Assembly: GCA_029556545.1 (NCBI GenBank)
Contig: JAKQEQ010000029.1
Coordinates: 79,084-143,083, forward strand
DNA length: 64,000 nucleotides
DNA from: Candidatus Hydrogenedentota bacterium
Lineage (GTDB): Bacteria; Hydrogenedentota; Hydrogenedentia; Hydrogenedentales; JAGMZX01
Direction of reading: 5' to 3'
The position numbers and the translations under genes were made by a program. This document shows, piece after piece, positions 49,981 through 58,503 of the stretch; the stretch's first letter is position 1; each line of letters begins with the position of its first letter. Below the pieces are notes generated by a model. The model had not been told where the DNA came from and did not search any database. It saw only the letters and a program-made list of their open reading frames with translations.

Positions 49981-50010
49981 ATCGCGTTTCTGGGCAAGAG
50001 GGAATGAGGC

Positions 50011-50065
50011 GGAGCCGTGTCAGGGGAAGGGGAGGGGGGAGGAAGTGGGGACCTGCCACGGCTCC
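50011..50065. repeat. Long hairpin with purine loop, copy 2
   Basis: GGAGCCGTGTCAG (50011-50023) and CTGCCACGGCTCC (50053-50065) pair with one mismatch around a 29-nt purine loop. Relative to copy 1, stem pair 7 changes from A-T to G-C on both arms, a compensatory change that supports selection for pairing or spread as a unit. The interval 50066-50422 holds no gene that I can support. Confidence 0.8.
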
Positions 50066-50422
50066 GCATACATTGTTAAGGGCGTCGAATAAGTCCTCAA
50101 TTCGCCACCGCTTGCCGCATAAACGCCGCCGATCAGCCGGCCCGCTTCGCGAACCGGGACCGAACGCGAATCTTCAACTTTGTGTACCTTGCGCCGCCCG
50201 AGCGGCGCGACCACCGCAGCCTTGCCTCATCCGCTTCTATTATACCTTATCATGCAGACTCTTGGGGGCCTTCAGTGGCCTTCGTCCAAAGAAACAAGGA
50301 ACTCGGGGTTTTCATTCCATGATTTGACGGGCGCACAGGGCGAGGTTTTCATATCAAGAGCGCTAAACTTATATTTAGTATTTCGGCAGAGGGCCAATCG
50401 GGCGAGCGCGGGGATGGGAGGA

Positions 50423-50467
50423 GATCGGACGGATCGGACGGATCGGACGGATCGGACGGATCGGACG
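50423..50467. repeat. Five perfect 9-bp tandem repeats GATCGGACG
   Basis: Five identical 9-mers follow each other, each containing a GATC site. The overlapping plus-strand frame reads DRT repeats and does not look like a gene. The unit is related to the degenerate array at 8247-8309. The rest of 50468-50593 shows no gene. Confidence 0.9.
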
Positions 50468-50593
50468 GAGCCGAGTCGGGGAAGAGAGGGGGCACTGCCA
50501 AGGCTGGGCGACCAGAAGCGGGAAGCGGGGCGGAAACGCGACAGCCATTCGGTGCGATCTACGGGTCGCCGGGTTTCCTCGTAAGGCTGCGCC

Positions 50594-50628
50594 GGGAGAG
50601 AGGCGGTCTTGTTCGTCGCCTCTCTCCC
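50594..50628 (-). terminator. Strong hairpin ending the sigma54 operon
   Basis: GGGAGAGAGGCG (50594-50605) and CGCCTCTCTCCC (50617-50628) form a perfect 12-bp stem with an 11-nt loop, 70 bp after the last stop codon of the operon. A T-tract is lacking, so termination efficiency is uncertain. A smaller hairpin CCGGAG-ATA-CTCCGG lies at 50652-50666. Confidence 0.5.
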
Positions 50629-50697
50629 ATACTCGAAGCGGGTCGCACCTCCCGGAGATACTCCGGCTTATGTCTGCCGCCCCCCGGCAAAGACTCC

Positions 50698-50847
50698 CTA
50701 CATCCGAGCGAACAGGCTAATCAGCAAGACGCTGGCGGCCAGCACGATCATCACAAACAAGGCGACGGCTTCCAGCAGCGCGCGAGCCCGCCGCTCCGAC
50801 GGCTCGACCTCGATTTCCTCGGTTATGGCACCACGTTGTTCGGGCAT
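50698..50847 (-). CDS. 49-residue single-pass membrane protein in the sigma54 operon
   Basis: ATG 50847 has AGAGG nine bases upstream. The product has an acidic N-terminus (MPEQRGAITEEIEVEPSE), a basic RRARA, then one hydrophobic helix (AVALFVMIVLAASVLLISLF). The C-terminus ends directly after the helix, so this is a tail-anchored small protein. It lies 51 bp after the receiver gene and is probably its partner at the membrane. Family unknown. Confidence 0.65.
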   Translation of the reverse strand: MPEQRGAITEEIEVEPSERRARALLEAVALFVMIVLAASVLLISLFARM

Positions 50848-50898
50848 TCCCTGCAACCTCTCTTCCGTTTGTTTGGCGACCGGCGCGGCATCGCGTCG

Positions 50899-51294
50899 TT
50901 ACCCGACACTTTGCGCGGTCGCGTAACGCGCGCGCACGTGATCGCAGGCTTGCCGGACCTCCTCTTCGAGCTGGTGCAGGGGAACCGGCTTTACCAAGGC
51001 TCTGGTTGCGCCGCAGATAAGGGCTGAAAACCGCTCCTCCACACTGGTCAGCAAGGCGATAATGGCCCGGTCCCGTCCTTGTGCGCGCAGAAACAACACC
51101 GTCTCGTAGGACTGCATATCGTCCATGTCGAAGTCCACGATGACCGCGTCGAACCCGTTGCGCTCGCAACACGCCGCCGCCGCCGTGCTGTCCGGCGCGG
51201 CGGCGACGTGAAAGGCGCGGCGTTCAAACCACGCGCACGTCATGTGCCGCAGTAACGGGTCATCCGAGACTATCAATATCCGCAAGTCGCCCAT
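50899..51294 (-). CDS. Stand-alone receiver-domain protein
   Basis: With ATG 51294 the product has 131 residues and consists only of a receiver domain: LRILIVSDD (acidic pocket), phospho-acceptor Asp in AVIVDFDMDD, the switch Ser/Thr in LLTSVEER and the conserved Lys in ALVKPVPL. There is no output domain, so it should act by protein contact, as CheY does. An ATG at 51324, three bases after the stop of the upstream small gene, is an alternative start that would imply translational coupling. No partner kinase is adjacent. Confidence 0.85.
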   Translation of the reverse strand: MGDLRILIVSDDPLLRHMTCAWFERRAFHVAAAPDSTAAAACCERNGFDAVIVDFDMDDMQSYETVLFLRAQGRDRAIIALLTSVEERFSALICGATRALVKPVPLHQLEEEVRQACDHVRARYATAQSVG

Positions 51295-51327
51295 GCCGTC
51301 ACCTGTTCGGTCGACGCCGACCATAAT

Positions 51328-51492
51328 TCACAGTCCCAGTCGCCAGTGCGACACGTACCGAATACCGCCTATGACAGTCTTGCGCGGCTCTTCCGCCCAG
51401 CCGTGCACCCGGTATCCCATCATGTGGACCAGCCACCACTTGCGTAATCGCGAAGCGGTCCACACCTGCCGCGCCTTCCTACAGCTTCCCAT
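51328..51492 (-). CDS. 54-residue basic protein, first gene of the sigma54 operon
   Basis: ATG 51492 directly follows a strong purine run (GAGGAGAGAGGAAG). The product is 54 residues, strongly basic and Trp-rich (ASRLRKWWLVHMMGYRVHGW, then EEPRKTVIGGIRYVSHWRLG). I know no relative. It starts about 108 bases after the predicted sigma54 transcription start, and its stop lies three bases before the first ATG of the receiver gene. The spacing and ribosome-binding site support it; sequence alone cannot prove that it is translated. Confidence 0.5.
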   Translation of the reverse strand: MGSCRKARQVWTASRLRKWWLVHMMGYRVHGWAEEPRKTVIGGIRYVSHWRLGL

Positions 51493-51610
51493 CTTCCTCT
51501 CTCCTCAGCGTGTACCATCCTTGCCGTCCAGACTCCCACCCGCCCGTGGTGCGTCTGTCCGGTGGCCGACGCGACTTACGCCGCCTTTATCGGCGCACGC
51601 AAAGAGGGGA

Positions 51611-51626
51611 AGCAATTACGATGCCA
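51611..51626 (-). promoter_or_regulatory. Sigma54 (-24/-12) promoter
   Basis: On the minus strand the sequence reads TGGCATCGTAATTGCT, matching the consensus TGGCAC-N5-TTGCW with the invariant GG and GC exactly ten bases apart. Predicted start is near 51600, pointing into the small-protein/receiver operon. Confidence 0.75.
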
Positions 51627-51724
51627 ACATGGGCTCTCCGTCGAGAAATCTTCACAATATGTTGAACGGCAATTACTTGTGGCAACAGGACGTGGGGGAC
51701 GGGACGCGCCGCGTGACACCGTTC

Positions 51725-51760
51725 TCCAGAATCTGGACGCGAATCCGTCCAGATTCTGGA
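51725..51760 (-). promoter_or_regulatory. Tandem TCCAGA-n-TCTGGA dyads, probable enhancer for the sigma54 promoter
   Basis: Two 13-bp dyads, TCCAGAATCTGGA (51725-51737) and TCCAGATTCTGGA (51748-51760), have centres 23 bp apart. They lie at about -131 and -154 from the predicted sigma54 start, the usual place for an NtrC-type activator. Together they also form a 15-bp stem-loop just 3' of the activator gene, so a role in ending that transcript is an alternative. Confidence 0.65.
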
Positions 51761-51812
51761 TTCAGTGCGAAAAACGGGTTCGCACTCGTCGATCCGGGCG
51801 ACCGGGTCGGCG

Positions 51813-53642
51813 CTACTTGAGGTCGTACTCGGCGATCTTGGCGTACAGGGTGCTTCGGGCCAACCGCAACACCTTGGCCGCCTCCTTGATGTTGCCGCCG
51901 CATTGGGCCAGGACGGCGGCGATATGGCGTCTTTCCATTTCCGCCAGGCTCACCGCGGGCAATGGCGCGTGGACGTCCAGGGCCGTTTCAGGCAGTTGCT
52001 CGATGGAAATGTCTGGGTGAATCCATTCACTTGTCGCGAGCGCGACGGCACGCAAGACCCAATTGCGGAGTTCGCGAACGTTTCCTCGCCAGGGCCGATT
52101 CTGGAGATAAACGAGCGTTTCCGGCGCAAAACCGCTAAGCGGGCGCTTGGCCTGGTTCTTGGCCATGGAGAAGAAATGCTCGGCGAGCAGCGGGATGTCT
52201 GAAATCCGCTCGCTGAGGGGGGGGATGTGAATCTCGAACCCGTTTAAGCGGTGAAACAGATCGTTTCGGAACTGTCCCAGCGCGAGCGCGCGCCGCAGAT
52301 CCTTGTTCGTGGCGGCAATGATCCGCACGCGGACCCGTTCTTCCTCGTTGCCGCCGACCCGGCGGAACTTTCCCTCTTCGACGGCGCGCAGGATGCGGGC
52401 CTGGTTCTCGAGGCTGAGTTCTCCAATCTCATCCAGGAACAGCGTGCCGCCGTGGGCCTGCACGAGAAGGCCGTCGAAACGACGCTGGGCGCCCGTGAAC
52501 GCGCCGCGCTCGTAGCCGAAGAACTCGCTCTCGAAGAGGTCGCGCGGAATGGCGGCGCAATTGACGACCACGAAGGGTCCCGACCGCAGCGCGGACTCGG
52601 TATGCACGAGTCGAGCGACCAGTTCCTTTCCGGTGCCGGTCTCACCGGTGATCAGGACATTCAGGTTGGATGGGGCGGACTGAGCGATTCGCGTGCGGAC
52701 GTCGCGAATAAGCGTGCCGCGGCCGATTAGTTCGAGGGATTCGCCCGCGCGGGCGCGAAGCCGTTCGTTGTCGCGACGCAGTTGCTCCAGGCTCTCGACG
52801 GCGCACACGGCGGGGGCCAGCGACTGGCATAAGAGCACCAGCAGGCGGAGGTCTGCTTCGTCGTAAACGGCGCGCGGCGTTTCCGTGCGCAAGGCGACGA
52901 CACCGAGGTCTTGCTCCCCTACGGAAATGGGGGCCGCCATGGTGAACGTGCGCACCTTGCGGTTGCCGCGATAGGCCTTGCCCGGCGCCAGCATGCCGCG
53001 TCGCTCCTTGAGGCAGGTGAGCAGCAACGCGAGCGGCGGTGTTTCCCGTGATTCTTCCGGCACGGATACCAGCCCGCCGCGGCCATGTGCCAGCATGGTC
53101 CACAGCGTGATGGGATCAAAGCGTTCCGTCATACGATGTCGGAGCGTCTGGAACAGCCCGACGATGTCCGGACAAAGGCCCAGTTCCCGCGTGATGTCGA
53201 ACAGGAACGCCAGGTCCTGCACAGTGCCGGGCCGCGCCTGAATGCCATCGCGGGCCGAGTCAAGTTCCAATGAAAGAGGCGTGGACTCGGACCAGGAAAG
53301 CGTGTCGTCGCCGTGGTCGTCTTTCTCGGATGCGGTTTCGGCGGCAAGGCCTTCGCAGACCAGCAGGAATTGATGGGAACCGATCGAGAGTTCGTCGCCG
53401 GGGCGCACTGTGCCGCGCCGCATGGGCACGCCGTTCACCAGCGCCGGGTTCCGGCTGCCGAGGTCTTCAAGGTGAAGGCCCTCCGGAGTCGAGGAAAGGC
53501 GGCAGTGTTGACGCGATACGCTCGCCTCCGGCAAGGTCACGTCACAGTCCGCTCCCCGGCCGATAAGCAGCCCTCTCTCCGGGGCAATGTTCCAGCATCC
53601 CCCTCGGCATCGGCCCGCTGTACTGACAAGCCTGGCATCCAT
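51813..53642 (-). CDS. FHA-GAF-AAA-Fis sigma54-dependent activator
   Basis: The likely start is ATG 53642 (609 residues), because a TATAAT at 53751-53746 lies inside the longer frame. An FHA domain occupies about 1-100 (LLIGRGADCDV, SVSRQHCRL, LGSRNPALVNG). A GAF domain follows at about 145-305, then an AAA+ domain with Walker A GETGTGKE near 334, GAFTGA near 380 and LFLDEIGEL, and a Fis-type HTH at the C-terminus (IKEAAKVLRLARSTLYAKI). FHA domains bind phosphothreonine, so activity is probably tuned by Ser/Thr kinases instead of a receiver. Its likely target is the adjacent -24/-12 promoter. Confidence 0.92.
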   Translation of the reverse strand: MDARLVSTAGRCRGGCWNIAPERGLLIGRGADCDVTLPEASVSRQHCRLSSTPEGLHLEDLGSRNPALVNGVPMRRGTVRPGDELSIGSHQFLLVCEGLAAETASEKDDHGDDTLSWSESTPLSLELDSARDGIQARPGTVQDLAFLFDITRELGLCPDIVGLFQTLRHRMTERFDPITLWTMLAHGRGGLVSVPEESRETPPLALLLTCLKERRGMLAPGKAYRGNRKVRTFTMAAPISVGEQDLGVVALRTETPRAVYDEADLRLLVLLCQSLAPAVCAVESLEQLRRDNERLRARAGESLELIGRGTLIRDVRTRIAQSAPSNLNVLITGETGTGKELVARLVHTESALRSGPFVVVNCAAIPRDLFESEFFGYERGAFTGAQRRFDGLLVQAHGGTLFLDEIGELSLENQARILRAVEEGKFRRVGGNEEERVRVRIIAATNKDLRRALALGQFRNDLFHRLNGFEIHIPPLSERISDIPLLAEHFFSMAKNQAKRPLSGFAPETLVYLQNRPWRGNVRELRNWVLRAVALATSEWIHPDISIEQLPETALDVHAPLPAVSLAEMERRHIAAVLAQCGGNIKEAAKVLRLARSTLYAKIAEYDLK

Positions 53643-53745
53643 TCGCTGCGACGTGTCCTCTTCTGTGGTTCCGCGCACAAAAATATCGGTCGGGGAAACG
53701 AACTCAATCGAACCCCTGAGGCGCGGCCCCCATAACTGGAAACCC

Positions 53746-53754
53746 ATTATAGCA
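53746..53754 (-). promoter_or_regulatory. Extended -10 promoter of the FHA activator gene
   Basis: On the minus strand the sequence TGCTATAAT forms an extended -10; the TATAAT spans 53751-53746. No good -35 is seen. It predicts a start near 53739, a leader of about 97 bases, and rules out the upstream in-frame starts. The remaining gap to 53979 shows no gene. Confidence 0.55.

Positions 53755-53979: not shown

Positions 53980-58503
<4,524 letters not shown>

Follow-up and report, generated by a model that had tools for sequence, protein, structure and literature searches.

This analysis concerns a stretch of 64,000 nucleotides of DNA from a Candidatus Hydrogenedentota bacterium (the window) and, within it, a minus-strand locus at positions 50,594 to 53,754 that holds the gene of a sigma54 activator with an FHA head, a sigma54-type promoter preceded by two dyads, and a short operon. 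The window is part of a 6.1-Mb genome bin (G000), which also encodes RpoN; sister-species comparisons rest on one genome of the same genus (G001). An initial annotation had read the locus as a self-contained switch in which serine/threonine (Ser/Thr) phosphorylation, sensed by the FHA domain, turns on a receiver and two small partners. Its features are these:

51813..53642, (-): FHA-GAF-like-AAA+(sigma54)-HTH_8 enhancer-binding protein, 609 residues, assigned by Pfam domains and motifs
51747..51761, (-): distal putative enhancer dyad ATCCAGAATCTGGAC, centred 128 bp before the first T of the promoter
51724..51738, (-): proximal putative enhancer dyad GTCCAGATTCTGGAG, centred 105 bp before the first T of the promoter
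51611..51626, (-): sigma54 (-24/-12) promoter TGGCATCGTAATTGCT, found as a pattern match, with TGGCACGAAACTTGCT as its counterpart in G001
51328..51492, (-): 54-residue miniprotein, member of an undescribed Hydrogenedentota family
50899..51294, (-): receiver-only protein of 131 residues (PF00072, 2.7e-14); the longest open reading frame (ORF) extends to 51324
50698..50847, (-): ORF with a hydrophobic tail, 49 residues (52 with a TTG start), a doubtful gene
50594..50628, (-): 12-bp stem at the end of the operon (-26.8 kcal/mol with its flanks)

The activator carries the defining features of sigma54-dependent enhancer-binding proteins: an AAA+ sigma54 interaction domain (Sigma54_activat, PF00158, 4.6e-64 in Pfam), in which the GAFTGA loop and Walker A motif are intact (residues 380 and 333), and a C-terminal Fis-type helix-turn-helix (HTH_8, PF02954, 2.4e-12). 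At its N-terminus is the FHA domain that the initial annotation had noticed (PF00498, 6.6e-16), with the core residues GR, SRxH and NG in place (GRGADCD...SRQH...SRNPALVNG). Translation most likely starts at the ATG at 53642, which gives the 609-residue protein. The G001 ortholog is 67% identical, with a ratio of nonsynonymous to synonymous changes (pN/pS, window against G001) of 0.32; the best named match outside the window's own bin, at 48% identity, is in a Candidatus Hydrogenedentota metagenome-assembled genome.

The promoter, which had been called near-consensus, is indeed found at 51611-51626 and fits the sigma54 pattern (TGGCAY-N5-WTGCW, with GG and GC 10 bp apart), between-species conservation included. 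A lone match to that pattern was rejected as evidence: the whole-genome searches which, together with individual stretches, supplied the motif counts for G000 found 27 occurrences vs 19 for a backward control. The surroundings of the match are more telling. Two 13-bp dyads, TCCAGAWTCTGGA, lie at 51725-51737 and 51748-51760 and together make a perfect 15-bp inverted repeat; their centres precede the promoter's first T by 105 and 128 bp, in agreement with the positions of about -131 and -154 first given for them. A 6.2-kb contig of G001 holds the same order of activator, dyad pair (24 bp apart), TGGCACGAAACTTGCT, miniprotein homolog and receiver. The DNA between proximal dyad and promoter has diverged between the two species; the distance has been kept, at 105 bp in both. 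Because the arrangement is preserved in G001 with identical spacing and recurs at other loci of both genomes, the window's dyads and promoter are more than a product of chance.

Recurrence was assessed by dyad and by layout. There are seven perfect dyads (GTCCAGNNNCTGGAC) in G000 and seven in G001; allowing one mismatch, genome-wide, yields no enrichment (53 vs 47; 78 vs 94), and information comes from perfect dyads and from the paired layout alone. The layout, two GTCCAGAWTCTGGAC dyads followed by a sigma54 site, occurs at six loci in G000, at five in G001 and at one in a genome of another family (G024), 12 promoters that serve a varied set of genes:

Window and G001:C230: miniprotein/receiver operon beside the FHA activator
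G000:C61 and G001:C47: in front of a gene for a Ser/Thr kinase with WD40 repeats (kinase-WD40; Pkinase 2e-34), divergent from another FHA activator
G000:C134 and G001:C90: leading into a gene pair for a receiver-PAS-histidine kinase and a response regulator
G000:C58 and G001:C13: in front of giant secreted SBBP-propeller (beta-propeller) proteins
G000:C139: behind the third FHA activator, with a Fis-like miniprotein and then an NHL-propeller protein downstream
G000:C179 and a second place on G001:C47: short transcripts downstream
G024:C7: after the FHA activator of that genome, with a dyad spacing of 23 and a distance of 103

The short transcripts (L051:3596-4050 at G000:C179 and L140:13373-13990 at G001:C47) contain ORFs of 65 and 101 residues and end in strong stems; they may specify small proteins or small RNAs.

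Dyad spacing in the 12 promoters is 22-24 bp, with one case of 33 bp. Measured from the centre of the proximal dyad, the sigma54 site lies at one of two classes of distance, 102-105 or 114-117 bp, which differ by about one helical turn. Rayleigh tests on these distances, with orthologs merged, gave p values of 0.002-0.01; being post hoc, the tests lend support but prove nothing. Some promoters have a degenerate second dyad, with five or six mismatches at G000:C58 and G001:C13. G000 has three close FHA activator paralogs and, since all three adjoin a promoter of this type, the FHA activators are the likeliest binders of the dyads.

The position of the window's dyads, about 52 bp past the end of the activator gene, also invites a different interpretation, that they act in RNA, as a hairpin, terminator or processing signal of that gene, and not as enhancers. 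They pair into a perfect 15-bp stem (-28.3 kcal/mol), and dyads likewise follow activators in L002, L042 and L265. However, dyad pairs also stand upstream of sigma54 promoters untied to any activator 3' end (G000:C61, C134, C58 and C179; G001:C47a, C90 and C13). Moreover, the 12 promoters have 24 dyads with 25 deviating stem positions between them, of which 17 are no longer paired, and the promoter distance is kept, which makes a conserved RNA hairpin the weaker reading. On these two grounds a terminator was mostly rejected, and we consider a role in RNA very improbable.

The 54-residue protein encoded directly behind the window's promoter, already recognised as a gene in the initial annotation, belongs to a family that was found in 43 of 68 Hydrogenedentota genomes (for this survey the phylum set is the same as the order set). 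Its members share the motif T-x-S-R-x-R-x-W-W-L-x-x-F-x-G-Y-x-V ... P ... G-x-x-x-Y-x-x-x-W, and the window's copy has a pN/pS of 0.49 against G001. It has no family match in Pfam, NCBIfam or PHROGs, where single members of the family gave weak or isolated matches. The AlphaFold2 model shows a confident beta-alpha-beta-beta fold (predicted local distance difference test score, pLDDT, of 83). Searches of the PDB by sequence and by fold produced nothing convincing (best Foldseek E 0.22, VIA Z at most 5.2); matches to the GNAT C-terminal region and to Alba-like proteins were set aside, as they agree only at the level of a common alpha/beta arrangement.

Fifty miniprotein copies have enough upstream DNA for a search of 400 bp on the coding strand, with up to one mismatch permitted and GG and GC held fixed. 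A sigma54 site precedes 17 of them, drawn from several families, and the three controls (reversed motif, opposite strand, downstream 400 bp) each gave 0/50. With a background of 0.014 per 400 bp, the binomial p is about 2e-19, a figure that overstates independence because some copies come from one genus. The family also keeps characteristic company. Of 54 matches, 11 have an FHA activator nearby, and at about ten loci a Ser/Thr kinase is close; copies adjoin FHA activators in at least four families, and seven FHA activators, the window's included, have a copy within 800 bp downstream. With some two copies per 5-Mb genome, we estimate that chance would yield well under one. At G053:C329 (L094) an FHA activator is followed by a Fis-like protein, then the miniprotein, then a Ser/Thr kinase. 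A Fis-like miniprotein with a weak HTH_8 match comes before the miniprotein in G008, G018 and G053; the window's genus has a receiver after the miniprotein instead. The constant core is FHA activator, putative enhancer, sigma54 promoter and miniprotein, and within the phylum the family would seem to be a signature product of sigma54-controlled promoters.

The remaining genes of the operon are less widely shared. The receiver is a bare one, as the initial annotation had described it: PF00072 is the sole domain in its 131-141 residues, with no output domain. The acidic pair and the positions of the phospho-Asp, Thr and Lys are present by inspection, and homology with G001 indicates that it probably starts at 51294. 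The G001 ortholog is syntenic and 67% identical (pN/pS 0.33). Conservation of the receiver at this locus is confined to the genus; other lineages have a Fis-like small protein there, or nothing. The third ORF, which had been proposed as a tail-anchored protein of 49 residues, was rejected as a gene: it has no homolog at E<=10 in 20 relatives, G001 included, and its pN/pS of 0.66 comes from a poor alignment. Of the partners that had been assigned to the activator, the 54-residue miniprotein co-occurs with it across genomes, the receiver does so in the genus only, and the membrane miniprotein does not; in G001, promoter, dyads and 54-residue miniprotein are all conserved and the 49-residue ORF has no homolog.

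These results bear directly on whether the locus is self-contained, a single system made up of activator, promoter, two miniproteins and bare receiver. The compactness of the gene order speaks for it, as does the retention of activator, promoter, miniprotein and receiver in the sister species. Against it, the promoter type is common to at least five other loci of G000 (at least six with the window's own, among them those of the Ser/Thr kinase and the two-component operon), the third ORF is not conserved, and the miniprotein recurs where the genus-specific receiver is absent. A stand-alone switch is hardly probable at all. The window looks instead to be one branch of a dispersed kinase-FHA-sigma54 regulon.

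How would such a regulon work? FHA-headed enhancer-binding proteins would bind paired GTCCAGAWTCTGGAC dyads that are separated by two helical turns and precede the start site by about 130-145 bp. From there they would loop to sigma54-RNA polymerase, and the AAA+ domain with its GAFTGA motif would open the promoter. The FHA domain would most likely read Ser/Thr phosphorylation by kinases that are encoded beside, and under, promoters of the regulon, closing a feed-forward loop from kinase to FHA activator to sigma54 and back to kinase. At the window the output would be a short operon encoding the conserved beta-alpha-beta-beta miniprotein together with a receiver-only protein that can be phosphorylated. 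The miniprotein is probably a small regulator or adaptor within the kinase/FHA pathway. For this joint reading, a dispersed sigma54 regulon run by FHA activators on paired dyads with kinase feed-forward, in which the window provides one target promoter together with its activator, we estimate a probability of roughly 0.8.

The kinase step has a rival reading. The initial annotation had the FHA domain reading Ser/Thr phosphorylation; the genomic link to kinases stands, and from it phosphorylation control of the activator is most likely, though at the level of inference. The regulon might be real and its FHA domain nevertheless mediate self-assembly or bind a non-phosphorylated partner, the proximity of kinases reflecting shared targets, for the link between kinase and FHA activator consists of genomic adjacency. 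That version is rather unlikely: the FHA core residues are intact in the activator, FHA activators have an abutting or divergent kinase gene at G001:C26, G000:C61 and G001:C47 (further loci have a kinase nearby), and at C61 and C47 the kinase gene carries the regulon's own promoter. Several points nonetheless weigh against a kinase-driven regulon with the miniprotein as its output. The FHA domain could have a ligand other than a product of kinase phosphorylation; the miniprotein, as modelled, seems to have no informative structural relative; for two thirds of its copies the 400 bp upstream lack a near-consensus sigma54 site; and several of the 50 copies, coming from one genus, are non-independent. 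In other families of the phylum, more distant FHA activators are preceded on their own strand by a Ser/Thr kinase domain (L254, L256, L258, L259 and L260).

A bolder extension is possible but doubtful, that a circuit from Ser/Thr kinase to FHA activator to sigma54 runs through the whole phylum, with the beta-alpha-beta-beta proteins and Fis-like 'decoy' miniproteins tuning kinase or activator directly. Were it true, these miniproteins would be a new class of sigma54 feedback regulators. The tiny Fis-like proteins (weak HTH_8; L037:6072-6359, L041:4630-4836, L042:5168-5443 and L139:5249-5473(-)) resemble the activator's own DNA-binding domain, and their genes come first after FHA-activator or dyad-type sigma54 promoters; they are possible decoys or cofactors. 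Near the end of the Fis-like gene, some 285 bp past the sigma54 site, there is one more dyad, perfect or nearly so (L042:5401, L037:6328).

The kind of activator is not new. Myxococcus xanthus reportedly has activators in which an FHA head is joined to a sigma54 AAA+ domain and a Fis-type helix-turn-helix, with an inferred link to Ser/Thr kinases, and the window's activator resembles them in all these respects. It differs in its setting: the Hydrogenedentota, with stereotyped paired GTCCAGAWTCTGGAC enhancers and with outputs that comprise Fis-like miniproteins and a family of miniproteins found across the phylum. The receiver is likewise of a familiar sort, since single-domain response regulators of the CheY/Spo0F kind also are bare PF00072 receivers with acidic pair, phospho-Asp, Thr and Lys positions; what sets it apart is its predicted sigma54/FHA control and its pairing with an undescribed miniprotein. 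The FHA-domain enhancer-binding proteins and sigma54 regulon of M. xanthus are attributed to Jelsbak et al. 2005 in PMC6971385. Sfa2 and VasH are sigma54 activators of type VI secretion clusters (PMC10482370), and Sfa2 offers a parallel as a cluster-encoded activator that also acts on unlinked loci (PMC10482370). In the systems of that review, however, the FHA domain belongs to a protein of its own, Fha1, on which the kinase PpkA acts (PMC10482370), whereas in the window it forms part of the activator; no secretion cluster was recognised beside the window's activator gene. A literature search on the phylum Hydrogenedentota found no work on FHA-sigma54 regulation. What is new is the regulon, its enhancer geometry and the miniprotein family, an undescribed family of small proteins recurring as a sigma54 output. 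With DNA motif, promoter geometry, activators, kinases and outputs laid out, the regulon becomes approachable by experiment, and both the wiring of eukaryote-like Ser/Thr signalling to sigma54 outside Myxococcus and feedback by miniproteins become testable.

The closing 12-bp stem of the initial annotation is present at 50594-50628. It has no U-tract and was not flagged in a scan for intrinsic terminators, and it is a possible terminator; the G001 contig stops within the first arm of the corresponding stem. Just past the end of the operon, five perfect 9-bp tandem copies of GATCGGACG occupy 50423-50469, and at 50009-50067, in the intergenic region next to an Rrf2-type regulator, a 16-bp inverted repeat (94% complementary, 27-nt loop) lies beside a 21-nt direct repeat. 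On the other side, directly upstream of the activator gene (53980-58503, minus strand), is the gene of a 1507-residue secreted-type protein with P-domains, a beta-helix stretch and (EG)n linkers.

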